NCBI GenBank assembly: GCA_026713825.1
Contig: JAPONS010000030.1
Coordinates: 1 to 42,064, forward strand
Direction of reading: 5' to 3'
Length of the DNA: 42,064 nt
Source of the DNA: Chloroflexota bacterium
GTDB taxonomy: Bacteria; Chloroflexota; Dehalococcoidia; Lucifugimonadales; UBA1127
The position numbers and the translations under genes are program-made. How positions within the stretch are numbered: the stretch's first letter is position 1; every line of letters starts with the position of its first letter. Under the pieces are notes generated by a model, which worked only from the letters and a program-made list of their open reading frames with translations, was not told the origin of the DNA and made no database searches. Shown piece after piece: positions 2,147 to 15,272 of the stretch.

Positions 2147-3217
2147 ATGGGAGAAATCGTGCTTGGCATCGGAACGTCCCACAGCCCCATGCTCGCCCAG
2201 CCGCCGGAGCTCTGGGCCGTGCACGGGCAGAACGACAAGCGGAATCAGGAGCTGGTCTTCCCGCCTGACGGCCTCATCTACCCCTACGAGGAGGCGGCGG
2301 AGCGCGCCAACCCCGACATCGCCAGGCTGGTGGACGAAGAGCTCTACAAGAAGCAGCACGCCAACCTCACCAACGCCATCGAGGAACTGGCGAGCAGCCT
2401 GCGCGCCGCTAACCCCGATGCCGTCGTCATCATCAGCGACGACCAAGATGAGGTCTTCTTTGAAGACAACATGCCCATGTTCAACATCTACTGGGGCGAC
2501 ACCATTCCCCTCATCGCCCGGACGCCCCCGGACGACGCGCCGCCCGCCGTCAAGGCGATGGCGTGGGGCTACGGCGACGTCTCCATGGACGTCCCCGTCG
2601 ACACCGCCCTGGCCCGCCACATCATCGAGCACATGATCGACAACGAGTTTGACGTGTCGCACTCCAAGTACCTCAAGGAAGAGTCCGGCGGCTACGTTGC
2701 CCGGCGCTACCCCACTCCCAACGGCGAGTCCACCTACGGCCGCATGACGGCCCCCCGCCAGCAGGGCATGCCCCACGGCTTCGCCTATGTCATCAAGCGG
2801 CTCATGCACAACGATCCCTTCCCCATCATCCCCGTCTCCCTGAACACCTGCTACCCGCCGAACCAGCCGACCCCGCGCCGCTGCTACGCCTTCGGCCAGC
2901 AGATCAAGGCCGCGGTTGACAGCTGGCACAAGGACGCCCGCGTCGCCGTCATCGGCTCCGGCGGCCTCAGCCACTTCGTCGTTGACGAGGAGCTCGACCG
3001 CGCCGCCCTCAAGGCGATGGTCGACAACGACGCCGAGACCCTTTCCAACCTCCCGCGACACCGCCTCAACTCCGCCGCCTCTGAGACCCGCAACTGGATC
3101 TCCGCCGCCGCGGCCTCCTCACACCTCAAGGGCGAGGTCCTCGCCTACGAGCCCGTCTACCGCACGCCCGCCGGCACCGGCGGCGGCTGGGGCATGGTCC
3201 GCTGGAACGGCCACTAG
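2147..3217 (+). CDS. LigB-type class III extradiol dioxygenase homologue (copy 1)
   Basis: The 356-residue product belongs to the catalytic (B) subunit family of protocatechuate 4,5-dioxygenase. H12 in GTSHSPML matches the first iron ligand. H210 in MPHGFAY fits the active-site His region, and E281/E282 in VDEELDRAAL fits the Glu ligand. The segment that normally carries the second His ligand (V-x-N-D-H in LigB) reads SDDQ here, with Q100 at the ligand position; the second copy at 11521-12594 has the same change. It is longer than LigB (about 300) because of an extra C-terminal block ending in a GTGGGWGM motif shared with copy 2. No LigA-like small subunit gene is nearby. The start is supported by GAGAGGAGAG upstream. 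Ring cleavage of a catechol or gallate-type acid is inferred from family and neighbours; activity is uncertain given the ligand change. Confidence 0.8.
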   Translation: MGEIVLGIGTSHSPMLAQPPELWAVHGQNDKRNQELVFPPDGLIYPYEEAAERANPDIARLVDEELYKKQHANLTNAIEELASSLRAANPDAVVIISDDQDEVFFEDNMPMFNIYWGDTIPLIARTPPDDAPPAVKAMAWGYGDVSMDVPVDTALARHIIEHMIDNEFDVSHSKYLKEESGGYVARRYPTPNGESTYGRMTAPRQQGMPHGFAYVIKRLMHNDPFPIIPVSLNTCYPPNQPTPRRCYAFGQQIKAAVDSWHKDARVAVIGSGGLSHFVVDEELDRAALKAMVDNDAETLSNLPRHRLNSAASETRNWISAAAASSHLKGEVLAYEPVYRTPAGTGGGWGMVRWNGH

Positions 3218-3239
3218 TCCCGATCGACACGGCATAGGA

Positions 3240-3270
3240 AGGGGCCTCTCCGGCAGCCGGAGAGGCCCCT
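3240..3270 (+). terminator. Hairpin terminator after LigB-like copy 1
   Basis: A near-perfect inverted repeat of about 14 bp (AGGGGCCTCTCCGG ... CCGGAGAGGCCCCT) begins 22 bp after the stop codon and is followed by CTACGTTTCT. The T tract is weak, but this is the common form of terminator in this window. Confidence 0.75.
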
Positions 3271-3358
3271 CTACGTTTCTCTCGCCACCGACTGACTCGA
3301 TGGCATCCTGCGCCCGGCGAAGGGGGGCCCCACAACCGCCGACCCTGCCATTTGCTCC

Positions 3359-3388
3359 TTGCCCCTGAGTCCAGCGCGTCCGTACGCT
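3359..3388 (+). promoter_or_regulatory. Promoter next to a possibly leaderless start
   Basis: TTGCCC (3359-3364), 18 bp, TACGCT (3383-3388). Only 6 bases separate the -10 hexamer from the ATG at 3395, and no Shine-Dalgarno sequence is present, so transcription may start at or very near the A of the start codon. Confidence 0.35.
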
Positions 3389-3394
3389 GGCCTC

Positions 3395-3730
3395 ATGAAC
3401 AAGAAAGACAAGCAGGACAAGGACCCCAAGCCGGCGCGAAAGCGGCCGGGCGCCCCGAAGGGCAACCAGAACGGCAGGAGGCACGGCCTCTACTCCAAGC
3501 TGTATCCCGTTGAATTCATGGACACGTTCGAGCGCCTCCGGCGGGAGCAGGGCCACCCGCCCTTGGACCCTGCGACGGCGCGTCAGCTCGAAGCAGTCAC
3601 CCGCGACCCCCGCATGAACAAGCGGCTCCTTGTTGACTCAATCAACGCCATGCGCACGATGATCACCTTTGAGAGGGCGATAAGGACATTGCAAATGATG
3701 AGGAGACTGGAGCAGCGGAATCGGCCATGA
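3395..3730 (+). CDS. Small basic protein with GAPKGNQN...HGLYS motif
   Basis: The 111-residue product is very basic at its N-terminus (MNKKDKQDKDPKPARKRP) and then carries GAPKGNQN-GRRHGLYSK. That signature occurs in small proteins of unknown function and near the start of some phage terminase small subunits. The rest is predicted helical, with Met- and Arg-rich segments (about 70-111). No catalytic motif is seen. The ATG at 3395 was preferred over a TTG at 3359 because the motif follows directly and a promoter lies just upstream. It stands alone between two terminators, in DNA less GC-rich than its neighbours downstream, which could mean lateral origin. No integrase or other phage gene is near, so a terminase role is not supported. 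Confidence 0.55.
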   Translation: MNKKDKQDKDPKPARKRPGAPKGNQNGRRHGLYSKLYPVEFMDTFERLRREQGHPPLDPATARQLEAVTRDPRMNKRLLVDSINAMRTMITFERAIRTLQMMRRLEQRNRP

Positions 3731-3973
3731 ACCCAGGCACAGCATTGATTCCTTCAACCCAATGCAACACAACCCGTTTTCCATACGTTTTGAGTCAGAC
3801 GGCCCAATACGGCGCAATGCAAGACAATAGGGTTTCAGCTACAACCACGTCGCGGCATCACGTCGCAAAACGCGCAACTGCGCCCAAGCTGAAATGCGTG
3901 ATTTCAGATACACACGTTCCGCAGAGATTTACTCTGGGACTCAACTCAATTCACGGGTCCCATCGATCACTGG
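3731..3973. other. Gene-free stretch with a palindrome
   Basis: No gene is recognised here. The DNA is visibly less GC-rich than its surroundings. It contains a perfect inverted repeat, CTGAAAT (3889-3895), 5-bp spacer, ATTTCAG (3901-3907), which could be an operator or a weak hairpin. A long plus-strand reading frame across this stretch and the next gene is an antisense shadow of the hydrolase. Confidence 0.4.
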
Positions 3974-4021
3974 AAAGGGCGCCGCAGGCGAGGGTCTTGC
4001 CCTCTGCCTGCGGCGCCCTTT
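3974..4021 (-). terminator. Hairpin terminator of the alpha/beta hydrolase gene
   Basis: A perfect 16-bp inverted repeat, AAAGGGCGCCGCAGGC (3974-3989) with its complement at 4006-4021, lies 26 bp beyond the stop codon of the minus-strand gene. The stem ends in A/T on both sides, so it may work in both directions. Confidence 0.8.
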
Positions 4022-4047
4022 GCGGGGTCCGTGAAGAGCCGTGGCCC

Positions 4048-6057
4048 CTAGTTCGTGAGCGCCAGCGGCGCCAGCGGCACGTTCGGGTCCAGCGGATTCC
4101 GGTTCCTTGCCGCCTTGACGTACCGGTCCGCGTCCTCCTGCAGCAGCAGCCGCTGGCCCACCAGCGCCTCCGCCGCTGCCTGGATGCGCTGCACGTACTC
4201 GTCGTGGCTGGCGTACCGCTCCTCGATCGACGGCCGCGGGTCGCCCGTGGCCTCCCGCTCCACCCTGGTGCGAGCGAAGGGCACGAAGCTGCCGGACAGC
4301 GAGAAGAAGTCGCCCGTGCCGACGCCCTCCTTGCGGAGACTCCAGCCAGTGTGCGTCCCCACGGGCGTCTGGATCTCCGGCGTGCGGATGCCGCCGAGGT
4401 CGTTGCCGTCATCGTCCACGACGGGCAGCTGAAGATGGTACTCCTGCCCCGGCACCGGCTGCGGCGGGTGCGCGCTGATGTGCCCCCGCTCGAAGTCGGG
4501 GCCGTAGTCGTACTTGGGCAGCCTGCTCGGCGATGGCGGCAGGTTGAAGCCCGGGATGGACGGGTAGTTGCCGATCACTTCCTCCCACCAGTCCAGCGTG
4601 CCGTCGGCGCGGCGGGGCACCAGGCTCTCGGGCGGCGCCGTGCCGTTGGTCGCCCACTGGTCCATGTTCTCCAGCATGGCGCGGAGCGTCGGCCCATTGG
4701 ACATGGGGTTGTTCGGGTGCTGCGTGTAGTCGCCCTCGCCCAGGCCCGCGCCGCCGTGCTGCGCGCTGGCGATGACGTACATGCGCACGTTGTCCTCAAA
4801 GTCCAGGTCGTCGCCGTTGCGCGGGTCCGTGTGCCCCAGCGACGCGTGCCGCTGCCAGTACTCGGTGTTGGTGTGCGTGTGTACCACCAGCGGGTCCGAC
4901 TCCGGTCGCTTCAGGACGGCGTCCACCTCCTCCGTGAACGGGTCCGGCACCGCCGAGTAGGCGAACGGGTACCACTCCGAGGGCCACTGGTGCTCCTCGT
5001 GCTGCCGTGGGTAGCGCCCTACCTGCGCGAAGCGGATGTTGAGGAAGACGCGCCCGCCGCCCGACACGTGCGGGTAGACGGCGTCGAAAACCCGCCGGCC
5101 CGTCGGGTCGACGTTGTAGCCGTCGTAGATGAACTGCCGCACCACCCGCGACGAGAGCGATTGCCCGTAGGTGTACACCTTGTCGACCGAGCCCGCGAGC
5201 GGGTTCGCGTTGCCGTCGGCGTCCTCGTCGTCGTACCGCAGGAAGGAGAGCAGGTCGCGGACGCCCACAAGGCCAAGTCCCATGACCCGCGACCGGCTGG
5301 TGGCGTAGATGAGCTCGTAGATGTGGCCGGGCTGGAAGCCATCCTTCAGGTACAGGTGCGTCTTGGAGGGCATGACCTTCACGTTGCCCGTTGCGTCCGG
5401 CCCGATTGTGGCGAAGGACCACTCGTCGCGCGGCACGTCCTCACGCTCGTCACGCTCCAGCTCCCGGCGCGTCAGCGTTGCGCCGTCTGGGTCGATCGGC
5501 TCGTAGCTGCGAATGGCCTTGTGGCCGCTGAGGGGGATGGAGAGCACGCCGGGGTCGTTGGCGATGAACTCCTGCCGCACAACGCCCTCCACGGGCTTAC
5601 CGTTCTCCATCGCCTCGGGCAGGTCGCATGTGATCAGGCCGTCGCCGGGCAGCAGGTCGCCCTGCCAGCCCGAGAAGACAACAGTGTAGCCCTTTCGCAT
5701 CAGGTAGCCGTTGCCGGCATCGGCCAGCGTGATCGGGTCCGGCGACCGTGGCGAGTCGTTGAAGCTCGACAGCGCCGTCCGGTTGCCCCGGTTGTTGACG
5801 TCGTACAGGATGCGCCGGTTCCCCTTGTCCAGGTCCACCGGCTTCAGGATGTCGAGGTCGGCGCTGAACTCCACCAACCCCTTGTCATTGCGCGGGGCGA
5901 GCTGCAAGTCGACGACGTTGCCGTTGGACGGGTCGTCGGGATCGAGGGCGAAGTGGACTTTGCCCACCAGTCGCTCGTACGGCCCAACGTCGCCGAACGA
6001 GTGGCCGTCGGCAAAGCCGAGCTGCTTGTTGAGGTCCAGGCGAATCTCCGTGTTCAT
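4048..6057 (-). CDS. Alpha/beta hydrolase domain protein (Abhydrolase_10-like)
   Basis: This 669-residue protein matches the large family of putative esterases with an atypical alpha/beta-hydrolase fold (PF20091 type). Family landmarks seen are ILYDVNNRGN (83-92), GYTVVFSGWQGD (123-134) and the nucleophile-elbow region YTYGQSLSSRVVRQFIYDGYN (296-315). S300 in G-Q-S-L-S is the likely nucleophile; many relatives read GxSQSG here. No signal peptide is visible, so it is probably cytoplasmic. The start at 6057 is followed by the expected strand of the family. It is transcribed divergently from the SDR gene and ends at a strong hairpin. Function in ester or lactone hydrolysis is inferred; substrate unknown. 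Confidence 0.8.
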   Translation of the reverse strand: MNTEIRLDLNKQLGFADGHSFGDVGPYERLVGKVHFALDPDDPSNGNVVDLQLAPRNDKGLVEFSADLDILKPVDLDKGNRRILYDVNNRGNRTALSSFNDSPRSPDPITLADAGNGYLMRKGYTVVFSGWQGDLLPGDGLITCDLPEAMENGKPVEGVVRQEFIANDPGVLSIPLSGHKAIRSYEPIDPDGATLTRRELERDEREDVPRDEWSFATIGPDATGNVKVMPSKTHLYLKDGFQPGHIYELIYATSRSRVMGLGLVGVRDLLSFLRYDDEDADGNANPLAGSVDKVYTYGQSLSSRVVRQFIYDGYNVDPTGRRVFDAVYPHVSGGGRVFLNIRFAQVGRYPRQHEEHQWPSEWYPFAYSAVPDPFTEEVDAVLKRPESDPLVVHTHTNTEYWQRHASLGHTDPRNGDDLDFEDNVRMYVIASAQHGGAGLGEGDYTQHPNNPMSNGPTLRAMLENMDQWATNGTAPPESLVPRRADGTLDWWEEVIGNYPSIPGFNLPPSPSRLPKYDYGPDFERGHISAHPPQPVPGQEYHLQLPVVDDDGNDLGGIRTPEIQTPVGTHTGWSLRKEGVGTGDFFSLSGSFVPFARTRVEREATGDPRPSIEERYASHDEYVQRIQAAAEALVGQRLLLQEDADRYVKAARNRNPLDPNVPLAPLALTN

Positions 6058-6103
6058 GGCGTTTCTCCCATAGCGTAGTCAGAGACGTGCTTGTGACGCG
6101 TGC

Positions 6104-6132
6104 AGTCTATGCGGACGCGATTCGGCTGGCAA
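6104..6132 (-). promoter_or_regulatory. Promoter of the alpha/beta hydrolase gene
   Basis: On the minus strand: TTGCCA (6127-6132), 17 bp, TAGACT (6104-6109), 46 bp before the start codon at 6057. It sits back-to-back with a TATACT -10 element (6155-6160) facing the SDR gene, so the two genes share a divergent control region of about 145 bp. Confidence 0.6.
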
Positions 6133-6202
6133 GGCATTGCCCATGCGCATAGCCTATACTGGCAACGACCGGAATACTGACGGGCACGCGAAAGGGGCAG
6201 CA

Positions 6203-6952
6203 ATGCGGCTGGAAGGCAAGGTAGCAATAATCACCGGCGCCGCGCGCGGCATGGGCGCCGAAGAGGCCCGGATGTTCGCTCGTGAGGGCGCAAAGGTCGC
6301 CGTCGCCGACATCGCCGAGGAGGAGGCGCAGGCGGTCGTGGCCGAGATCGCAGAGGCGGGCGGAGAGGCGATGTTCCTCTCTCTCAATGTGGCCAGCGAG
6401 GAAAACTGGGCGGAGGCGGTTGCCACCGTGGTGGCCCGGTTCGGCGGTGTGGACATCCTCGTGAACAACGCCGGCGTCGACGGCGCCCACGAGCCTCACC
6501 TGCTGGACACTGAGCCCTGGGACGAGGTCATGGCCGTCAACGCTAGGGGGGTCTTTCTCGCCATGAAGACTATGATTCCGGAGATGCGGAAGGCGGGAAG
6601 GGGCTCCATCATAAACGTCTCGTCCATCTCGGGCTTCGTGGGCATGGAGGGCACCCACATGGGCTACAACGCCTCCAAGGCCGCGGTCCGCATCATGACC
6701 AAGTCGGCGGCCGTCCAGAACGCAAAGCAGGGCATCCGGGTGAACTCGGTGCACCCCGGCATCATGCCGCCTATGCAGCGGACCGTGCGCACGCCCGAGC
6801 GGGTTGAATACTTGGTGACGGAGAAGATTCCCATGGGGCGCATCGGCAGGGTCGAGGAGGTCGCGGCCGGTGTGCTCTTCCTCGCGTCCGACGAGGCGTC
6901 GTACATTACCGGCACGGAGCTCGTCATCGACGGCGGCTACCTGGCGATCTGA
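6203..6952 (+). CDS. Short-chain dehydrogenase/reductase (SDR)
   Basis: The 249-residue protein is a classical SDR. It shows the cofactor motif TGAARGMG (11-18), an acidic D37 after strand two that favours NAD(H), NNAG (88-91), catalytic S141, Y155 and K159 (YNASK), and the C-terminal [12 protein letters not shown] signature. The length is typical of FabG-like enzymes. The ATG at 6203 was chosen over upstream in-frame starts because it begins the first Rossmann strand and has AAAGGGGC upstream. Within this catabolic island it probably oxidises a hydroxyl intermediate, but the substrate cannot be deduced. Confidence 0.93.
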
Positions 6953-6973
6953 GGGATCGAGGCGAGGCTGTCC

Positions 6974-7342
6974 CTACTCCTGGAAGTCCACGCGAATCAG
7001 CGGGCTCTCCGCCACCCATCGGTCGACGTCCATGTGGGCCATGCGCGCCTCCGCCGCCTTCATCCTCGTGAGAATGTCCCGCTTCTCGTCGGAGTCCGTG
7101 ATTGGCACGGCCTTCGACGGGATGTCGCGCTGGGCGCTCTCCTTGACGTGGAAGGTCATGTCCGGGTTGGCCAGCATGTTGGCGAACCAGGACCGCTTGC
7201 CGGGCAGGCTGGTCAGGTAGACGGCCCCGTCGACAAGGTGGTGCCATATCTCGATGCGGCGGGCCTCGCCGGACTTGCGGCCAATGGTGGTGATGTCAAC
7301 GTTGCGGTCGACTTCCAGCGCCTGCCGAACGGCGTCGTCCAT
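6974..7342 (-). CDS. Deazaflavin (F420)-dependent nitroreductase-family protein
   Basis: The 122-residue product fits the small split-barrel family once called DUF385 (F420H2-dependent quinone/nitro reductases). Signature elements are TTIGRKSGEARRIEIWHH (about 17-34), YLTSLPGKRSWFANMLANPD and a conserved Trp before the last helix. The start codon at 7342 is preceded by AGGAG; the frame extends further upstream without sense. It converges with the SDR gene with 21 bp between stops and has its own promoter. If the organism makes F420 this would be a redox enzyme; no F420 synthesis gene is in the window to confirm it. Confidence 0.8.
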   Translation of the reverse strand: MDDAVRQALEVDRNVDITTIGRKSGEARRIEIWHHLVDGAVYLTSLPGKRSWFANMLANPDMTFHVKESAQRDIPSKAVPITDSDEKRDILTRMKAAEARMAHMDVDRWVAESPLIRVDFQE

Positions 7343-7369
7343 GACAGTTCTCCTGCGTAAGGTGACCCC

Positions 7370-7398
7370 ACTGTAGTTGGCGTCGGACGCAGTGTCCA
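7370..7398 (-). promoter_or_regulatory. Promoter of the F420-type reductase gene
   Basis: On the minus strand: TGGACA (7393-7398), 17 bp, TACAGT (7370-7375), 27 bp before the start codon at 7342. It is back-to-back with the promoter at 7415-7443. Confidence 0.6.
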
Positions 7399-7414
7399 CC
7401 GTGACACCCGTCCG

Positions 7415-7443
7415 TTGACGCGCCATCGGGCGCTCACTACACT
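7415..7443 (+). promoter_or_regulatory. Promoter of the VOC gene pair
   Basis: TTGACG (7415-7420), 17 bp, TACACT (7438-7443), 34 bp before the ATG at 7478. It is one of the best sigma-70-type matches in the window. Confidence 0.7.
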
Positions 7444-7477
7444 ACGGGCATCCCCAACCCCTCCCCGGAGGTGCTCT

Positions 7478-7894
7478 ATGGCAAGGATCAGGCACATCGC
7501 TCTGGCCACTGACGACCCGGAGGCCACCGCGAAGTTCTACAAGGAGGGTCTGGGCCTCAAGGAGGTGGGGAAGGTCAATTCCACCACCGCCGAGGGCTAC
7601 TACCTGAGCGACGGCCACGTCAACCTGGCCGTGCTCAAGTTCAAGGGCGACGACCCCGCCACCACCGAGGGCATCCTCCGCTACACCGGCGTCCACCATT
7701 TCGGCCTGCAGGTGGACGACATGGACGAGGCCCGCGCCCGCATTGAGGCCGCCGGCGCCGTCCACCGCCCCTACCCTGGCACCGAGGAGATGGCCGCCCG
7801 CGGCAACGTCGAGGTGAAGTTCTCGGGCCCCGACGGCGTCACCGTCGACCTGTCCGAGACCGGCTGGCTGGGCACGTCCGAGCCGGAGGACTAG
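7478..7894 (+). CDS. VOC-family (glyoxalase/bleomycin-resistance fold) protein, copy 1
   Basis: The 138-residue protein is a single VOC module built of two beta-alpha-beta-beta-beta halves. It opens with MARIRHIALATDDPEATAKF, a typical first metal-binding strand with H7; the middle strand carries HHFGLQV (about 75-81) and the end has VEVKFSGPDGVTVDLSE with the usual C-terminal acidic residue. The family includes lyases, epimerases and type I extradiol dioxygenases; this size suits a dimeric enzyme, but the reaction is not readable. GGAGG lies 8 bases before the ATG. It is followed after 70 bp by a close paralogue (most residues identical by eye), so the two arose by tandem duplication. Confidence 0.88.
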   Translation: MARIRHIALATDDPEATAKFYKEGLGLKEVGKVNSTTAEGYYLSDGHVNLAVLKFKGDDPATTEGILRYTGVHHFGLQVDDMDEARARIEAAGAVHRPYPGTEEMAARGNVEVKFSGPDGVTVDLSETGWLGTSEPED

Positions 7895-7964
7895 CGGCCG
7901 TTCGCCCTGAGGGAAATCGAAGAAGGAACGGGCGGTCAATACGCAGCGGAGAGAGGAGAGCATC

Positions 7965-8384
7965 ATGCCAAGGATCAAGCACATCGCCATCGCAACCCAG
8001 GACCCGGAGGCCACCGCCAGGTTCTACAAGGAGGGCCTCGGCCTGCGTGAGGCCGGCCAAGTCAACTCTGTCGCGGCGGAAGGCTACTACCTCACCGACG
8101 GCTACATCAATGTGGCCATCCTCCGCTTTAAGGACGACGACGCCGCCACGACCGAGGGCGAGATCCGCTACACAGGCATCCACCACTTCGGCTTTGAGGT
8201 GGACGCAATGGCTGAGGCGGAGGAGCAAATCCTGTCAGCGGGAGCCGTCCACCGGCCGAGTAGCATCACGACGGAAAACGCCCAGCTTCCACGCCACGGC
8301 AACGTCGAGGTGAAGTTTGTCGGCCCGGACGGCGTCACCGTCGACCTCTCGGAGGCCGGCTGGGTGGGAACTGCCCCGGACTAG
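7965..8384 (+). CDS. VOC-family protein, copy 2
   Basis: This 139-residue paralogue of the preceding gene begins MPRIKHIAIATQDPEATARF and keeps the same order of motifs: KEGLGL near 26, HHFGFEV in the middle and a final VEVKFVGPDGVTVDLSEAGW strand. The region before the last strand differs (a short insertion rich in Ser/Thr near 97-107), which may alter substrate choice. AGAGAGGAGAG precedes the ATG. Probably co-transcribed with copy 1; a hairpin follows 27 bp after its stop. Confidence 0.88.
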   Translation: MPRIKHIAIATQDPEATARFYKEGLGLREAGQVNSVAAEGYYLTDGYINVAILRFKDDDAATTEGEIRYTGIHHFGFEVDAMAEAEEQILSAGAVHRPSSITTENAQLPRHGNVEVKFVGPDGVTVDLSEAGWVGTAPD

Positions 8385-8411
8385 GCGCCGCAGCGCTGCA
8401 CAACGAAACGG

Positions 8412-8431
8412 GGGCGGCCGAGTGGCCGCCC
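8412..8431 (+). terminator. Hairpin terminator after the VOC pair
   Basis: GGGCGGCC, GAGT loop, GGCCGCCC: a perfect 8-bp GC stem 27 bp after the VOC copy 2 stop. There is no T tract. Confidence 0.6.
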
Positions 8432-8488
8432 TCGCTCCGCTGTCTTGCCCCAATTCCCGTGCTGACATACAGCCCTTGACCGAGCGCC

Positions 8489-9883
8489 CTAATTGAACAG
8501 ATCCCGCAGTTTCTGCAGTTCCGCTTCACTATATCGGAAGGTGGCCGGGTCCCACACCATGGTGATCTCCGGTAGTTCTACGTGTTTGGTGATAGTCCCC
8601 GTAATCCGCGTAATCGCGACCTGTGTGTAGATGAGCAGCGCTGCCCCATCTTCCACGATGCACTCATTGGTGAAAAGGGTCGGCGTGCTGCCGCATTCCA
8701 TGTACTGGTTGTCCTCATCAAAATAGTCGTCCTCGGGCGTGACACCCGGCTTCAGCACGGCAAACTGGTACCCCTGTCCTATGTCAGGCTCCTGGAACAC
8801 GAAGGTGAAGGTTCCTTCGCCACACAGCGGAATGACGTGGGTGATGCTGGGCGCCATGACCAGCTCCACCTCTTGGTCGACCGCAAACTTCGTCGTCAGA
8901 TCCGAGTGCATGACGTTGTTCGCGTCCTCGCTGTTGCCATAGCCGAAGGCGTGGCCGAGCTCATGCCAGAGGAGGCGCCGGACGGTCTCTCCGTCGTACG
9001 GCACCCAGTCACCGAGGCAGTTGGTCTCGCCCAGGGGTGCGAGGAGCCGACGGCTCTCGCCGACGATGGTGGCCTGGTGGCCGCCCGCGTCGCGCAGCCA
9101 GCCGATGGTGAAGTCGGGGGTCTCTTGCGGCCCGGAACGGCTGACCGTAAAGCCCTCCTCGGTCCAGGACGCCAGATCTTCGGTCAACAATTGGAGCGAT
9201 TCTTCCACCCCATCCGCAGCGTACTCCGGCAGGTCGTCGACGGTGTAGGTAAGCAGGCCGGTTACGATCCCTCGCAAGAAGAGGTGGCCCAATGCCCGCT
9301 CCCACTCCGCCTCCCGCTGCAGCTCCGTCCGCGTAGAAGCAAGCTCCCGCTCCGCCCGCTGCTTCGCCAAGCGGTCACGAGACGCCACTTGTTGAGCCTC
9401 CTCCGCGGCATCCATTGCTGTTTGCGCCGCCGCTTCCGCCGCGATGCGCTCCTGCTGCTCCTCTCTGGCCTGCTGCAGCGCCTCATTCTTCAGCATCTCT
9501 TGGCTGATGCCCTCCTGCTCAGCGGTCGTCCTGGCAAGTGACTCGCGCTGCGTGGCCGCCTCCGCGACGCCCCTCGCAATGCGTGCGGCGTCAAGCTGCT
9601 GCTGCAGCGTCGCCTGTTGCTGTTGCAGGGATGCAACCTGCGACTCCGCATTCACCCGGCTTTGCGTTTGCACCTGGATCTCGGCCGCCGCTTCAGTGTC
9701 GTCCAGCTTGGCCAGGTCAAGGTCGCTGCGGACCGTGAAAAGGAGGTAAGTCGTCAGGCCAATGAGGCCCAGCATCACAAGAAAACCAAGGACTGTTCCG
9801 TTCAGAAATCGTGCGTTGCCGCGCCGTCTGTTCACTTGCATGGCCAACTTCCCAAGTAGGAAAGCCAGGCCATGTTGTGGCAT
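8489..9883 (-). CDS. Membrane-anchored coiled-coil metzincin-like protein
   Basis: The 464-residue protein has a short cytoplasmic start, one membrane helix (about 31-50), a long Gln/Ala/Glu-rich coiled coil (about 60-195), and an extracellular C-terminal domain resembling matrixin/metzincin proteases. The zinc site reads HELGHAFGYGN (307-317) and is followed by a NNVMHS Met-turn (M325); an IGWLRDAGGHQ strand (260-270) also recalls matrixins. In matrixins the third zinc ligand would be His at 317, but here it is Asn, so the enzyme may be inactive or bind metal differently. Two starts are possible (9883 with GGGAG upstream, or 9841); the first is kept. A C-terminal beta-rich region (about 335-450) is unassigned. 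It is not obviously part of the catabolic pathway. Confidence 0.8.
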   Translation of the reverse strand: MPQHGLAFLLGKLAMQVNRRRGNARFLNGTVLGFLVMLGLIGLTTYLLFTVRSDLDLAKLDDTEAAAEIQVQTQSRVNAESQVASLQQQQATLQQQLDAARIARGVAEAATQRESLARTTAEQEGISQEMLKNEALQQAREEQQERIAAEAAAQTAMDAAEEAQQVASRDRLAKQRAERELASTRTELQREAEWERALGHLFLRGIVTGLLTYTVDDLPEYAADGVEESLQLLTEDLASWTEEGFTVSRSGPQETPDFTIGWLRDAGGHQATIVGESRRLLAPLGETNCLGDWVPYDGETVRRLLWHELGHAFGYGNSEDANNVMHSDLTTKFAVDQEVELVMAPSITHVIPLCGEGTFTFVFQEPDIGQGYQFAVLKPGVTPEDDYFDEDNQYMECGSTPTLFTNECIVEDGAALLIYTQVAITRITGTITKHVELPEITMVWDPATFRYSEAELQKLRDLFN

Positions 9884-9902
9884 GGTCTGGCTCCCGTGTG
9901 AT

Positions 9903-9944
9903 ACGGAGAAAGGAGGCTCACGGAAGGGTCAGCCTCATCTCCGT
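9903..9944 (-). terminator. Hairpin terminator of the RraA operon
   Basis: A two-part stem, ACGGAGA (9903-9909)/TCTCCGT (9938-9944) enclosing GAGGCT (9913-9918)/AGCCTC (9931-9936), lies about 25 bp beyond the RraA stop on the minus strand, with CCTTTCT on the outgoing side of the inner stem. Confidence 0.6.
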
Positions 9945-9969
9945 GGTCTGGTAAGTAGTCTGTGTGCAA

Positions 9970-10626
9970 TTAGCTGGTCTGACGGGTCTGGAGCGCGTGG
10001 TAGCGGAACTTCTCCCGCGCCGCGTCCAGCCGGCCTCCCTTGGCGATCTCCTGCCGGATGTTGTCTTCCGCCTCTTCAATCTCTCGGCTGATGTTCAGCA
10101 CCTCTTCAACACGCTCCTGCGGGATCACCACGATGCCGTCGGCGTCGCCGATGAGGACGTCGCCGGGCGTCACGTGGACCTCGCCCAGCGAGCAGGGCTC
10201 ATTGATGCCGACGCACTCCACGCGGTCCTTGCCGGTGCGCATGGTGTTGCCCCGGCTGAAGATGGGGTAGCCCAGCTCCAGGCTGCGCATCGCGTCTCGG
10301 CAGACACCGTGGATAACCGTGCCCGCAACCTTGTTGCGGTGGGCCATGATCGTCAGGATGTCGCCCCAGACGGTTGCGTTCGGCTTGCCCTCGTTGTCCA
10401 GGACCACCACGTACCCCTCGGGCACCTCGTCGATGTAGTCGCCCACGTTGCCCGGCTTCACCGCGTCGACGGGAATGGTCTTCACCGTGAAGGCCCGCCC
10501 GGCCAGTCGGAAGCTGCGGGCCAACGGCATGATGCCGACGGCCTGCCCGTTGATCCCCAGCCTGTCCAGGGCGTCGCTGATGGCGGTGGTCCCCATTGTG
10601 TTCAGCTCTTCAATGACCTTCTCCAT
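9970..10626 (-). CDS. RraA-family aldolase (LigK/CHA-aldolase-like), copy 1
   Basis: The 218-residue protein belongs to the RraA fold shared by 4-hydroxy-4-methyl-2-oxoglutarate / 4-carboxy-4-hydroxy-2-oxoadipate aldolases and the RNase E inhibitor RraA. The active-site stretch WGDILTIMAHRNKVAG (87-102) and HGVCRD with R110/D111 match the substrate- and Mg-binding motif of the aldolases, including LigK of the 4,5-cleavage pathway. Given the LigB and LigJ homologues here, cleavage of a carboxy-hydroxy-oxoadipate to pyruvate and oxaloacetate is the favoured role, by inference. The start lies 3 bp after the stop of the second RraA gene, so the two are translationally coupled. Confidence 0.85.
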   Translation of the reverse strand: MEKVIEELNTMGTTAISDALDRLGINGQAVGIMPLARSFRLAGRAFTVKTIPVDAVKPGNVGDYIDEVPEGYVVVLDNEGKPNATVWGDILTIMAHRNKVAGTVIHGVCRDAMRSLELGYPIFSRGNTMRTGKDRVECVGINEPCSLGEVHVTPGDVLIGDADGIVVIPQERVEEVLNISREIEEAEDNIRQEIAKGGRLDAAREKFRYHALQTRQTS

Positions 10627-10629
10627 GGA

Positions 10630-11304
10630 CTACTTCCTTTCCAGCATGGTTTCGTAGTTGGACCCCATGACCTGGCTGATGGGCACGCCCGACAGCACGT
10701 CCTTGGTCATGAGCGCCTCTCTGGCCGCGATATCCTCCGCCGCAGCCACCGCTTCCTCCGCGTGGTCGGCCGAGATGAAGACGACGCCGCTGCTGTCCGC
10801 GATGACGAGGTCGCCCGGCTTCACCCAGACGCCGCACATCTCGATCAGCTCGTTGCACGACTCTTCGATAATGCGTGTCCGGGCGGTTACCTGCACCCCG
10901 GCGCGCCCGTAGACCGGCAGGCCCAGCTCCCGGCTCTCGTCCACGTCCCGAACGGCCCCGTCGACGATGACGCCCGCGACGCCCTTGACCTTGGCGCCGT
11001 TCGATAGGATGCCGCCCCACGCAGCGCAGTCGAGGCGCCCGCGGTGGTCGATGACAATGACGTCGCCCGGATTGGAGGCCTCGATGGCTGCCGCACCCAA
11101 GTGTCGCGTCGAACGCTCGCCACCGAAGGCTTTCATACGCGTCGTGACAACACGCCCGCAGATCTTGGCCGTCACCGTGAGGGGCCGCAGGCCAATGACC
11201 GAGCCCTTCAACCCCAACCGGTCCAGGGCGTCTGAGGCCGCACAGGCGTCGACCTTGGAGAGGCGTGCAACCAGGGTTTCCTGGGCCGCTTCCTGCGTTG
11301 CCAT
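10630..11304 (-). CDS. RraA-family aldolase, copy 2
   Basis: This 224-residue paralogue lies upstream of copy 1 in a two-gene operon. It has the same core motif, WGGILSNGAKVKGVAG (96-111) and DGAVRD with R119/D120. The N-terminus differs and the region around 55-70 (TRMKAFGGERSTRHLG) is unlike copy 1, which may mean a different substrate. The ATG at 11304 was chosen, with a GGGGGT stretch 6-8 bases upstream; the frame runs about 100 bases further upstream without support. A TACACT -10-like element lies on the minus strand near 11338, without a clear -35. Confidence 0.85.
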   Translation of the reverse strand: MATQEAAQETLVARLSKVDACAASDALDRLGLKGSVIGLRPLTVTAKICGRVVTTRMKAFGGERSTRHLGAAAIEASNPGDVIVIDHRGRLDCAAWGGILSNGAKVKGVAGVIVDGAVRDVDESRELGLPVYGRAGVQVTARTRIIEESCNELIEMCGVWVKPGDLVIADSSGVVFISADHAEEAVAAAEDIAAREALMTKDVLSGVPISQVMGSNYETMLERK

Positions 11305-11466
11305 AGGAGTACCCCCACAAGCGGAATGCTGTGCGCAGTGTAACGCCTTGGGAGGCAATACGCTAGCAGTTTGGAGGGAATGAATTTCGCGTTTCTTGGG
11401 CAATTTCGCGAGAAACGGGGGGAGTCCGGACGGCCTGGGGCGCCGGTGTCGGGCCGCCAGAGAAGC

Positions 11467-11499
11467 AAAAAGGGGCCCCGCCTGACAGGCGGGGCCCCT
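11467..11499 (-). terminator. Intrinsic terminator of LigB-like copy 2
   Basis: On the minus strand a 14-bp stem (11486-11499 with 11471-11484) is followed by a run of five T (11467-11471). It begins 22 bp past the stop of the LigB-like gene at 11521. This is the most canonical rho-independent terminator in the window. Confidence 0.9.
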
Positions 11500-11520
11500 G
11501 GTATCCGTGTCAGCTTGGAC

Positions 11521-12594
11521 TTACGTCCACTCAACCATGCCCCAGCCGCCGCCGGTGCCGGCGTTGGTGCGGTACACGGGCTCGTAGCCGATCTTCTCTG
11601 CCTTCAGGTGTTCCAGCGCCCCCGCGATGGTGACCCAGTTCAGGGTCTCAGAGGCGGCGGAGTGCAGGCGATGGCGCGGCAGGTTCATCAGGATGTCCGC
11701 GTCGTTGTCCACCATGCCCTTGAGCGCGGTGCGGTCCAGCTCCTCGTCCACCGTGAAGTGGCTCAGGCCGCCGGAGGTCATGATGGCCACCCGGGTGCCG
11801 TTGCCGCCGCTCCAGGACTCGACGGCCTGGCGGATGGCACGGCCAAACTCGAAGCAGCGCTTGGCGCTGGGCTGGTTCGGCGGGTAGCAGGTGTTCTGCC
11901 AAATGGGAACGATGGGGATGAGGTTCTCCTCCATCACGCGCTTCACCACGAAGCTCCACGCGTGGGGCAGGCCGAACTGCCGGGGCTGGGTCACGCGGAC
12001 AGTCTCCATCTCGCCGCCCTTGGAGTGCGGGTACCGGTGGCCCACTGTGCCGCCGGGGTTCTCCCGCAGGTACTTCGAGTGGGACACGTCAAAGTCGTGG
12101 TCAATCATGTACTCGATGATGTGGCGGCCCAGTTCGGAGACCACGGGGATCTCCAGCTCGCGCTGGGGGTAGCCCGCCGCGGAAGCCTTGGCGGCCTCGG
12201 ATGCGTCCGGCGCCACCTTGCGGGGGTAGTAATTGATGGAGTCGCCCCAGTAGACCATGAAGGCAGGCATGTTGTCCTCGAAGAGCATCTCGTCCTGGTC
12301 GTCGCCAACCATGACGGCGATGTCGGGCTTGATGCGCTTGTAGGTCTCCGCCAGGTGGGCGATCGCCGCGTCAGTGTTTTCCTTCTGCCGCTTGTGGGTC
12401 TCATAGTTGCAGAGGTCCGCAATGCTGGGGTTGGCCCGCTCCAGGGCCTCCTCGAAGCTGTAGATCTCGCCGGTCGGAGCGAAGCACAGCTCCTTGTTCC
12501 GCTGGTCGTTGAGGGCGTGGTTTGCCCAGAGCTCAGCCGGCTGCATGAGCATCGGGCTATGGGAGGTCCCTATTCCCAAAACAATCTCTGGCAT
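11521..12594 (-). CDS. LigB-type class III extradiol dioxygenase homologue (copy 2)
   Basis: The 357-residue protein aligns with copy 1 (2147-3217) over its whole length and is almost the same size. H12 in GTSHSPML (first iron ligand), the LPHAWSF His region and VDEELDRTAL (Glu ligand) are present. The segment VMVGDDQDEMLFEDNMP again places Gln (Q100) where LigB has its second His ligand, so the change is a subfamily trait rather than a sequencing slip. The C-terminal NAGTGGGWGM tail is shared. GAAGGAGGAAGAG precedes the ATG. It has its own promoter and terminator. The role in aromatic ring opening is inferred from family and surroundings. Confidence 0.82.
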   Translation of the reverse strand: MPEIVLGIGTSHSPMLMQPAELWANHALNDQRNKELCFAPTGEIYSFEEALERANPSIADLCNYETHKRQKENTDAAIAHLAETYKRIKPDIAVMVGDDQDEMLFEDNMPAFMVYWGDSINYYPRKVAPDASEAAKASAAGYPQRELEIPVVSELGRHIIEYMIDHDFDVSHSKYLRENPGGTVGHRYPHSKGGEMETVRVTQPRQFGLPHAWSFVVKRVMEENLIPIVPIWQNTCYPPNQPSAKRCFEFGRAIRQAVESWSGGNGTRVAIMTSGGLSHFTVDEELDRTALKGMVDNDADILMNLPRHRLHSAASETLNWVTIAGALEHLKAEKIGYEPVYRTNAGTGGGWGMVEWT

Positions 12595-12649
12595 CTCTTC
12601 CTCCTTCGTCCTGTGAACCCTTACTCTTCCTGGCCGTTCTTGGTCGCAG

Positions 12650-12678
12650 ATTATAGACCCCGGTGGGGAATGCGTCCA
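12650..12678 (-). promoter_or_regulatory. Promoter of LigB-like copy 2, inside the upstream terminator
   Basis: On the minus strand: TGGACG (12673-12678), 17 bp, TATAAT (12650-12655), a perfect -10. The -35 lies in the loop, and the spacer in one arm, of the hairpin that ends the upstream amidohydrolase gene. Confidence 0.65.
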
Positions 12679-12689
12679 CCACCGGGGTC
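12656..12689 (-). terminator. Hairpin terminator of the amidohydrolase gene
   Basis: GACCCCGGTGG (12656-12666) pairs with CCACCGGGGTC (12679-12689), an 11-bp stem 14 bp beyond the stop at 12703. The loop holds the -35 of the next gene's promoter. Confidence 0.65.
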
Positions 12690-12702
12690 AAGTGCGCAGA
12701 AA

Positions 12703-13707
12703 CTAGGCGATGGAAAAGCGCGGGAACGCCTTCTTCGCGGTGTCCTCAAACACGTTCTTGCGGTCCTGGTCCGACAGCCAGTCAATGGACTCGATGACGG
12801 GCTTCAGGTCGTCCAGCCACTCGCCCGTCTCGGGGTTCTGGCTGGAGCCGGAACCCGGGTTCTCCGTGCCGAACATGCAGCGGTCAGTGCCGCAGATCTG
12901 GAACAGCAGGTCCAGGCTCTCCTTGTTGTACAGCACCGCGTCGAAGTAGAGCTTGCGCAGGGACTCGTCGAAGGTCTCGACGTCCTTCTCGCGCCAGCGG
13001 TGGGCGCGCCACCGGCCAATCTGGTAGGGCACCGAGCCGCCGCCGTGGCACACAATGATCTTCAGGTCCGGGAAGGTGTCCAGCGTGTTGTGGTCCATGA
13101 GGGACATGATGGCGATGCCCTCTTCCGTGATGAAGTGGTTGGAGTAGGTCTCCCTGTTGTTGCGGCAGGACGCCGTGTGGATCAGGGCGGGCACGTCCAG
13201 CTCAATCATCTTCTCATAGAGGGGGTACCAGTACTCGTCGCCCATGGGAGGCATGTAGGGGTCCTGCCCCTCTGAGGGGTCAGGGTCGATCATGACGCCG
13301 ACGAAGCCCAGCTCCTTGACGCACCGCTCCATCTCCTCGAAGACGATGCTCACGGGCTCGCCCCACACCTGCGGCAGGCCGCAGACGCCGCGGTAGCGGT
13401 CGGGGTAGTAGTCGACGGACTGCTTGATGGCGTCGTTGTTGGCCTTGCAGAAGTCCTCGACGATGCTGGCAAGCGGGTCAGAGTGCATCAGCTGGAAGGG
13501 CCGCGGCGAGAGGAATTGGACGTCCGTGCCGACGCCGTCCATGCGCTTGACGTGGTTGTCGACCACTGGGCGCATGCGCTCGTCGGAAATCTTCAGGCTG
13601 CCGCGCTTGCGGTGGATGCGGCTGGAGAGCAGTCCCGCCTTGAACGCCATGAGCTCCGGCGGGCTGTTGAGGTGCCCGTGAATGTCTACAACCTTGTAGT
13701 CCGCCAT
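12703..13707 (-). CDS. Amidohydrolase-2 family protein (LigJ/ACMSD-like)
   Basis: The 334-residue protein has the amidohydrolase TIM-barrel metal site: HGH (H10/H12) on the first strand, an ALIHTAS strand, IIVCHGGGS and a late FGTEN strand where hydratases and decarboxylases of this group place their acidic residue. It is related to the two LigJ-like proteins at 19439 and 20465 but more distant, with shared IDPDPSEG and WYPLYEKMIEL blocks. Members of this group include 4-oxalomesaconate hydratase and non-oxidative decarboxylases such as ACMSD and gamma-resorcylate decarboxylase, so a hydratase or a decarboxylase is possible. AAGGAGG lies 6 bases before the ATG. It sits upstream of LigB-like copy 2 in the same direction. 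Confidence 0.85.
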   Translation of the reverse strand: MADYKVVDIHGHLNSPPELMAFKAGLLSSRIHRKRGSLKISDERMRPVVDNHVKRMDGVGTDVQFLSPRPFQLMHSDPLASIVEDFCKANNDAIKQSVDYYPDRYRGVCGLPQVWGEPVSIVFEEMERCVKELGFVGVMIDPDPSEGQDPYMPPMGDEYWYPLYEKMIELDVPALIHTASCRNNRETYSNHFITEEGIAIMSLMDHNTLDTFPDLKIIVCHGGGSVPYQIGRWRAHRWREKDVETFDESLRKLYFDAVLYNKESLDLLFQICGTDRCMFGTENPGSGSSQNPETGEWLDDLKPVIESIDWLSDQDRKNVFEDTAKKAFPRFSIA

Positions 13708-13893: not shown

Positions 13894-13967
13894 CTGCGCA
13901 CCAAAGTGGGTGGCGTGTGCCGTCCACATCACCTTGGATTGGCAAAGACATAGGGAGGATTAAAGGC

Positions 13968-15272
13968 ATGCTCACACAGGAAGACAATGAACTGATCTGT
14001 CGAGTAGGCCCCGGCGCGCCCATGGGCGAGGTGATGCGCCGCTACTGGCACCCCTTGCTCATCTCCGACGAGCTCCCGGAGCCGGACTGCCCGCCCGTCC
14101 GTGCCCGGCTGCTGGGCGAGGACCTGATCGCCTTCCGCGACACAAACGGCAAGATCGGACTCATCGCCGAGTCGTGTCCCCACCGGGGCGCGTCACTGTT
14201 CTTCGGCATCAACCAGGAATGCGGCATCATGTGCATCTACCACGGATGGAAGTTCGACGTGAACGGTGACTGCGTCGACATGCCATCCGACATGCCCGGC
14301 AGCCAGTTCAAGGAGAAGGTGCACGTCACGGCATACCCCACCGTCGAGTCGGCCGGCGTCATCTGGGCGTACATGGGACCAAAGGAGAAGCAGCCCGCGC
14401 CGCCAAACTACATCTTCAACAACCTGCCCCCGGATCACGTCATCGCCTACCGCGTGCCCATCTACTGCAACTACCTGCAGAGCATGGAGGGCAACATCGA
14501 CTCCACCCACCTGGGCACGCTGCACGTCTACCACCAGGACAAGGTTCCCGTTGACCTCGACACCGACAGGCCGGGCTACCCGTCTCCCAAGTTCGCGCTC
14601 TACTCCCGCGCAAAGTACCGCTACGCCCGCGTCGACGTACAGGACACGGACTACGGCTTCCGCCTCATCGCCGAGCGCCCCACTGACGCCGGCAACAAGT
14701 ACATCCGCACTAACTGCTTTGTCCTGCCGTACACGGCCTTCATTGCAGCCCAGCGCCGAGGCGCAGCGGGCGTGCTCATCCAAGTGCCGATTGACGACTA
14801 CACGAACCAGCGCGTGGGCATCCGTTACAACGTCCACGCCCCATTCACCGCCGCGGAGCGACGGCAGACCATCGAAACAGGCGCGCTAATGGACCCGAAC
14901 GAGCCCAAGAAGCGGCTCAAGAGGGCCGAGAACGACTACATGGTCGACCGCTGGGCCCAGAAGAACACCATTCTGGCAGGCATCTGGCCCATCCCCGAGC
15001 AGGACTACGCCCTGATCGAGACCATGGGCGCAATCTACGACCGCACCAAGGAGCACCTCTACGGCGGCGACGCGGCCATCATCCGCTGCCGTCAGATGCT
15101 TTTGGCGATGGCCCGCAACATCCAGGAAGGGATTGACCCGCCGGGCCTCGACCCAGACATTCCGACGCACATGATCCAGTCGGAAGAGATAGTTATCGGC
15201 CCCGACGACGACCCGTGGCTCGTCGCGGCAGACGCCGGCGAGACCACCAAGCGAGGTGAGCGCCTCCGGTAG
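13968..15272 (+). CDS. Rieske non-heme iron oxygenase, alpha subunit
   Basis: The 434-residue protein has an N-terminal Rieske domain with C70-x-H72 (CPHRGAS) and C89-x2-H92 (CIYHGWKF) binding the 2Fe-2S cluster. A catalytic domain follows with the mononuclear iron site D178, H181 and H186 in GNIDSTHLGTLH. The arrangement resembles phthalate dioxygenase / vanillate O-demethylase-type oxygenases (e.g. LigX) acting on aromatic acids. GGGAGG precedes the ATG by about 9 bases. No reductase or ferredoxin partner is encoded in the window, so electron supply must come from elsewhere. Demethylation or hydroxylation of a lignin-like aromatic upstream of ring cleavage would fit the neighbourhood, as inference. 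Confidence 0.92.
   Translation: MLTQEDNELICRVGPGAPMGEVMRRYWHPLLISDELPEPDCPPVRARLLGEDLIAFRDTNGKIGLIAESCPHRGASLFFGINQECGIMCIYHGWKFDVNGDCVDMPSDMPGSQFKEKVHVTAYPTVESAGVIWAYMGPKEKQPAPPNYIFNNLPPDHVIAYRVPIYCNYLQSMEGNIDSTHLGTLHVYHQDKVPVDLDTDRPGYPSPKFALYSRAKYRYARVDVQDTDYGFRLIAERPTDAGNKYIRTNCFVLPYTAFIAAQRRGAAGVLIQVPIDDYTNQRVGIRYNVHAPFTAAERRQTIETGALMDPNEPKKRLKRAENDYMVDRWAQKNTILAGIWPIPEQDYALIETMGAIYDRTKEHLYGGDAAIIRCRQMLLAMARNIQEGIDPPGLDPDIPTHMIQSEEIVIGPDDDPWLVAADAGETTKRGERLR

Follow-up and report, generated by a model that had tools for sequence, protein, structure and literature searches.

Glutamine in place of a metal-ligand histidine in two LigZ/DesZ-type LigB homologues of a SAR202-type bacterium

Two homologues of LigB, here called copy 1 and copy 2, were found to carry glutamine (Gln100) at the position of the LigB iron ligand His61. 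They are encoded in the window, by which we mean the whole analysed stretch of 42,064 nucleotides (contig JAPONS010000030.1 of assembly GCA_026713825.1, a Chloroflexota bacterium of the class Dehalococcoidia). As judged by sequence comparison, both proteins are probably type II (LigB-superfamily) extradiol dioxygenases of the kind represented by LigZ and DesZ of Sphingobium SYK-6. Our preferred reading, to which we give a probability of roughly 0.7, is that they hold their metal in a site with a single histidine and open the ring of a lignin-type catechol or (methoxy)gallate. The positions of the features are given in Table 1.

Glutamine at the His61 position of LigB

The two copies, which are 59% identical to each other, were assigned to family PF02900 with scores of 75.9 bits (copy 1) and 45.7 bits (copy 2) against a curated cut-off of 26.3 bits. 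The AlphaFold2 (AF2) models had a mean predicted local distance difference test (pLDDT) score of 85.7 for copy 1 and 85.4 for copy 2. The model of copy 1, with which the fold comparison was run, showed the LigB/DesB fold, and its best solved matches were DesB (Z 30.6, root-mean-square deviation 2.6 over 255 residues) and LigAB (Z 29.8); the copy 2 model presented like confidence and structural elements. Each model has a strand that ends at residue 97, followed by a short helix over residues 100–103.

Alignments were obtained from phmmer searches of the Protein Data Bank and with MAFFT, using LigB (1b4u; identity confirmed over 302 residues), DesB and MhpB as references. Both methods placed residue 100 of either copy, a glutamine, in the column of LigB His61, which confirms what an earlier note on this DNA had proposed from the sequence alone. 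The motif segment aligned free of gaps, with DDQDEVFFEDNMPMF of copy 1 standing over PDHYNGFFYDVMPPF of MhpB; given this and the agreement of the two methods, a shifted alignment that would move DDQ off His61 was rejected. The Gln100 codons differ between the copies (CAA, CAG), and the residue therefore cannot be put down to one sequencing error. The ligand set of two histidines and one glutamate seen in LigB (His12, His61 and Glu242) is absent from both copies, the His61 column being glutamine. The substitution of this histidine by another one in the chain was also rejected: only His12, His210 and His276 are conserved among the Gln-type sequences, and the family alignment, which the earlier note had named as a check, revealed no other conserved histidine to fill the ligand position.

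The other active-site residues are kept in copy 1 (Table 1) and in copy 2, where the counterparts are His12, His211 (LigB His127), His279 (LigB His195) and Glu316 (LigB Glu242); the catalytic acid/base histidine pair is present in both. The earlier note was right about His12, but it sought the ligand glutamate in VDEELDR, whereas the alignment places it in the SAASE segment (E313/E316). The GTGGGWGM block, which had been taken for an extra of these two copies, proved to be a C-terminal strand (AGTGxxxGF) found throughout the branch. The iron of DesB has four protein ligands, His12, Asn57, His59 and Glu239, of which Asn57 of the NDH motif is the additional one (DesB paper). The matching residues are His12, Asp98, Gln100 and Glu313 here, and His, Asn, Gln and Glu in LigZ and DesZ. 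Asp98 of copy 1 is aligned with Asn59 of LigB as well, and Glu102 is nearly invariant in the Gln-type branch.

LigAB (protocatechuate 4,5-dioxygenase) and DesB (gallate dioxygenase) share with the copies the fold (Z ∼30) and the equivalents of His12, His127, His195 and Glu242, and differ from them in having His61/His59 instead of glutamine and Asn59/Asn57 instead of aspartate, at ∼30% identity. The copies also have neither the LigA subunit nor a LigA-like fused domain. MhpB (2,3-dihydroxyphenylpropionate dioxygenase) resembles the copies in lacking the LigA subunit and in its ungapped motif region, but reads PDHYN where they read DDQDE. The absence of a LigA gene nearby, remarked on previously, extends to the whole draft genome of the window (96% complete), in which a search for LigA (PF07746) gave 0 matches, while the same search gave 4 in SYK-6. 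These four were located beside or within LigB-type genes and none with LigZ or DesZ, so that a missing LigA is the normal state in the Gln-type branch.

Table 1. Positions of the two LigB homologues, their active-site residues and the neighbouring genes in the window.
Feature	Position	Strand	Evidence or remark
Copy 1, LigZ/DesZ-type (Gln-type) LigB-superfamily dioxygenase (probable), 356 aa	2147..3217	+	PF02900 E 3.5e-21; AF2 model; tree
Copy 1 His12 (LigB His12 ligand position)	2180..2182	+	alignment
Copy 1 D98-D99-Q100-D101-E102	2438..2452	+	Gln100 codon 2444-2446; alignment
Copy 1 His210 (LigB His127 / DesB His124; putative catalytic acid / substrate OH)	2774..2776	+	alignment, DesB analogy
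Copy 1 His276 (LigB His195 / DesB His192; putative catalytic base)	2972..2974	+	alignment, DesB analogy
Copy 1 Glu313 (LigB Glu242 ligand position, SAASE)	3083..3085	+	alignment
Alpha/beta hydrolase-10 protein, far end of the segment that is inverted compared with L009/L010	4048..6057	-	
Short-chain dehydrogenase (SDR), inside the inverted block	6137..6952	+	
RraA-like a, counterpart of the RraA gene beside SYK-6 ligY (54%)	9970..10626	-	
RraA-like b, counterpart of the RraA gene beside SYK-6 ligZ (49%)	10630..11403	-	
Copy 2, LigZ/DesZ-type (Gln-type) LigB-superfamily dioxygenase (probable), 357 aa	11521..12594	-	PF02900 E 5.8e-12; alignment; AF2 model
Copy 2 Gln100 codon	12295-12297	-	alignment
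LigY-like amidohydrolase	12703..13707	-	best solved match LigY 6e6i/5vn5 E 6e-95, then LigJ-type 4-oxalomesaconate hydratase E 3e-59; 45% to SYK-6 LigY
Rieske oxygenase with LigXa_C domain (O-demethylase type)	13917..15272	+	29% to Rieske/LigXa_C protein near SYK-6 ligY

The Gln-type branch and its members in Sphingobium SYK-6

Relatives were drawn from GTDB genomes, plasmids and the window's own genome. The His61 column held 50 Gln, 21 His and 1 Glu in a first set of 72 sequences, and 74 Gln, 36 His, 3 Glu and 1 Lys in an enlarged set of 114. Gln-type sequences were found in Chloroflexota, Actinomycetota, and alpha- and betaproteobacteria. In the first set, aspartate directly precedes the glutamine in 50/50 Gln-type sequences and the residue at +2 is glutamate in 49 of them and aspartate in one, the motif being nearly always D-Q-x-E; the equivalents of His12, His127, His195 and Glu242 are invariant in all 50. 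The maximum-likelihood tree of the 72 sequences split the Gln-type from the His-type LigB, DesB and MhpB at 99/99 support, which backs a single origin of the glutamine, and both copies, with D-Q-x-E at the His61 column, fall in the LigZ/DesZ-type branch. The branching order was less sure in a FastTree of the larger set: once the motif had been masked, the His-type DHxE group described below and a few long branches took no firm position. On this sequence evidence, we regard Gln100 as fixed and ancestral in the branch and not as damage; the earlier description of it as a stable subfamily trait was right, and in the light of these counts (50 of 50 branch sequences, and 74 of 114 after enlargement) understated. 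The two copies probably arose by duplication inside the Dehalococcoidia, and their host is a marine SAR202-type bacterium.

LigB-superfamily genes have multiplied strongly in genomes of the same order, up to 12–13 per genome (G1211, G1147, G1219), and the window's genome has 6. A His-type LigB subfamily of ∼379 aa in SAR202-order genomes (L112–L122 and L124) carries D-H-x-E (DHVE/DHLE), combining the ligand histidine with the glutamate typical of the Gln-type branch, and is possibly an intermediate.

The genome G829 was taken as that of Sphingobium SYK-6, given that it encodes a LigY 100% identical to the 6e6i/5vn5 sequence; where it was compared, its DesB matches the Protein Data Bank sequence, and there is a one-residue difference in its LigB. 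LigZ is SLG_07720 and ligY is SLG_07750 (PMC12997858), and the LigZ gene was recognised as the LigB-superfamily member lying three genes upstream of ligY, with the motif MGNDQRELF. DesZ (SLG_19030) was assigned by position: extrapolation from ligZ (819 kb) and ligB (SLG_12500, 1363 kb) led to ∼2.105 Mb, and the gene at 2.10 Mb has the motif LGNDQMEIF. A second SYK-6 LigY relative (61%; G829:C1:2098877-2099866) directly adjoins this gene, and may hydrolyse the DesZ product.

LigZ is described as the OH-DDVA dioxygenase (PMC12997858 among the sources) and DesZ as 3-O-methylgallate 3,4-dioxygenase. As both carry the glutamine and are reported ring cleavers, enzymes with this glutamine do open rings; the suggestion that the reaction of the copies is not extradiol cleavage is therefore unlikely at the level of the family, and the ligand set of two histidines and one glutamate does not define the whole superfamily. 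LigZ is like the copies in its glutamine at the His61 column, D-Q-x-E, other catalytic residues and absence of a LigA partner, and like copy 2 in having two RraA genes and ligY as neighbours. DesZ likewise shares the glutamine and the catalytic set (40–41% identity), with the LigY relative adjoining. Both differ from the copies in reading NDQ (GNDQREL in LigZ, GNDQMEI in DesZ) instead of DDQ; LigZ is 38–39% identical to the copies, which have longer inserts around residues 30–75 and 175–205, and the SAR202 blocks hold two paralogues each. A one-to-one orthology with SYK-6 LigZ was not found, as the tree groups LigZ with DesZ and alphaproteobacterial proteins and the copies with SAR202 proteins.

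Proposed metal site and reaction

In the preferred reading, a divalent metal, probably Fe(II), would be held by His12 and Glu313, and the side-chain oxygen of Gln100 together with Asp98 (Asn in LigZ and DesZ) would most likely complete the site. The diol of the substrate would chelate the metal, and by analogy with DesB His210 would act as the acid and His276 as the base, so that O2 is inserted and the ring opens. The LigY-like amidohydrolase would then hydrolyse the product, which the two RraA proteins would carry towards pyruvate. We lean, with slightly better than even confidence, towards the whole Gln-type branch, including LigZ and DesZ, using such a one-His site (His12, Gln100, Glu313, Asp/Asn98 and perhaps Glu102).

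The coupling of the +2 glutamate to the glutamine in the first set (49/50 Gln-type sequences against 0/21 His-type) would also suit a different site, in which Glu102 of D-Q-x-E swings in to give His12-Glu102-Glu313, one histidine with two carboxylates, and Gln100 lies in the second sphere. In the larger set, however, this glutamate coexists with histidine in the SAR202 DHxE subfamily, which indicates that Glu102 is not needed as a substitute for the histidine, and in the models residues 100–103 form one short helix, which makes it probable that residues 100 and 102 face different ways. We therefore regard the Glu102 site as unlikely, although it is the strongest of the alternatives.

Ring cleavage could also proceed with Mn(II), Co(II), Zn(II) or some other metal for which a one-His site is better suited. 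Manganese-dependent extradiol enzymes exist, which favours this view, as does the difference between the ligand set of the copies and that of LigB. However, a paper on SYK-6 cites studies of LigZ and DesZ, which have the same glutamine, among those for ferrous iron in ring-cleavage active centres, and another metal in the copies is accordingly improbable.

It is more doubtful still that the copies are not dioxygenases at all, their site having decayed or been repurposed, for example as a non-catalytic partner or for a hydrolytic reaction. That repurposing occurs in the lineage is illustrated by the paralogue C74 of the same genome (locus L004, 327 aa), in which His12 is replaced by Arg, the glutamine by Glu (DDEDE) and the base His195 by Val. 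All three changes are kept in relatives at 80–81% (among L142, L143, L144 and L145), and Arg12 and Val195 in two further relatives at 50%. Because His12 and the base histidine are lost, C74 is likely to have lost its function, and its clade is probably a conserved, non-catalytic group with the LigB fold. Copies 1 and 2, unlike C74, keep His12, both catalytic histidines and the Glu242 equivalent, and have their glutamine in common with working enzymes; loss of function in them is unlikely.

Several points weigh against the one-His dioxygenase as we have drawn it. The iron in LigZ and DesZ is known by secondary citation, from the SYK-6 paper. Both enzymes are only 38–41% identical to the copies and are grouped together in another sub-branch, and their substrate is therefore not transferable to the copies. 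No solved structure of a Gln-type enzyme was found among the Protein Data Bank matches of either copy. In the window, the Rieske gene is only distantly LigXa-like (29%).

Gene surroundings and significance

Copy 2 is flanked by the LigY-like gene and the RraA pair, with the Rieske/LigXa_C gene beyond the LigY-like gene, and its block matches the SYK-6 order ligZ-rraA-rraA-ligY gene for gene. Similar blocks were found on plasmids of Rhodococcus koreensis, Bradyrhizobium, Aminobacter and Polymorphobacter, the LigY of the Polymorphobacter block being 70% identical to that of SYK-6. In two related Dehalococcoidia (L009 and L010) the genes run copy 1, LigY-like gene, copy 2, RraA b, RraA a, SDR and hydrolase, L009 having a Rieske gene after copy 2. 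The order of the window (2147-13707) results when everything after copy 1, LigY-like gene through hydrolase, is turned round; the paralogues are thus ∼8 kb apart on opposite strands because the block is inverted relative to the sister genomes. This arrangement suggests that both copies serve one pathway.

The RraA-like proteins a and b are kept as a distinct pair across phyla (9970-11403 in the window; 7776-9199 in L097). The hydration step that follows LigY in SYK-6 is listed as not identified; one of these two proteins might act as that hydratase and its partner as the aldolase.

Extradiol dioxygenases serve in textbooks as an example of the 2-His-1-carboxylate iron site. The DesB paper describes the His-His-Glu sphere as highly conserved, and no remark on the glutamine of LigZ and DesZ was recognised by title or abstract in the open-access papers searched, a scope outside which the 1998 LigZ and 2004 DesZ papers lie. 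The copies, which from their sequences are probably active lignin-type ring cleavers, belong to the known LigZ/DesZ kind, and what is of interest is that this kind, known for years, seems not to follow the 2-His-1-carboxylate rule. Should LigZ, DesZ and dozens of marine SAR202 relatives carry out this chemistry with one histidine ligand, they would be a natural exception to it, and one that can be tested, as LigZ and DesZ are already laboratory enzymes. The results further advise caution against calling Gln-type genes inactive, and against annotating the many SAR202 LigB paralogues as protocatechuate 4,5-dioxygenases.

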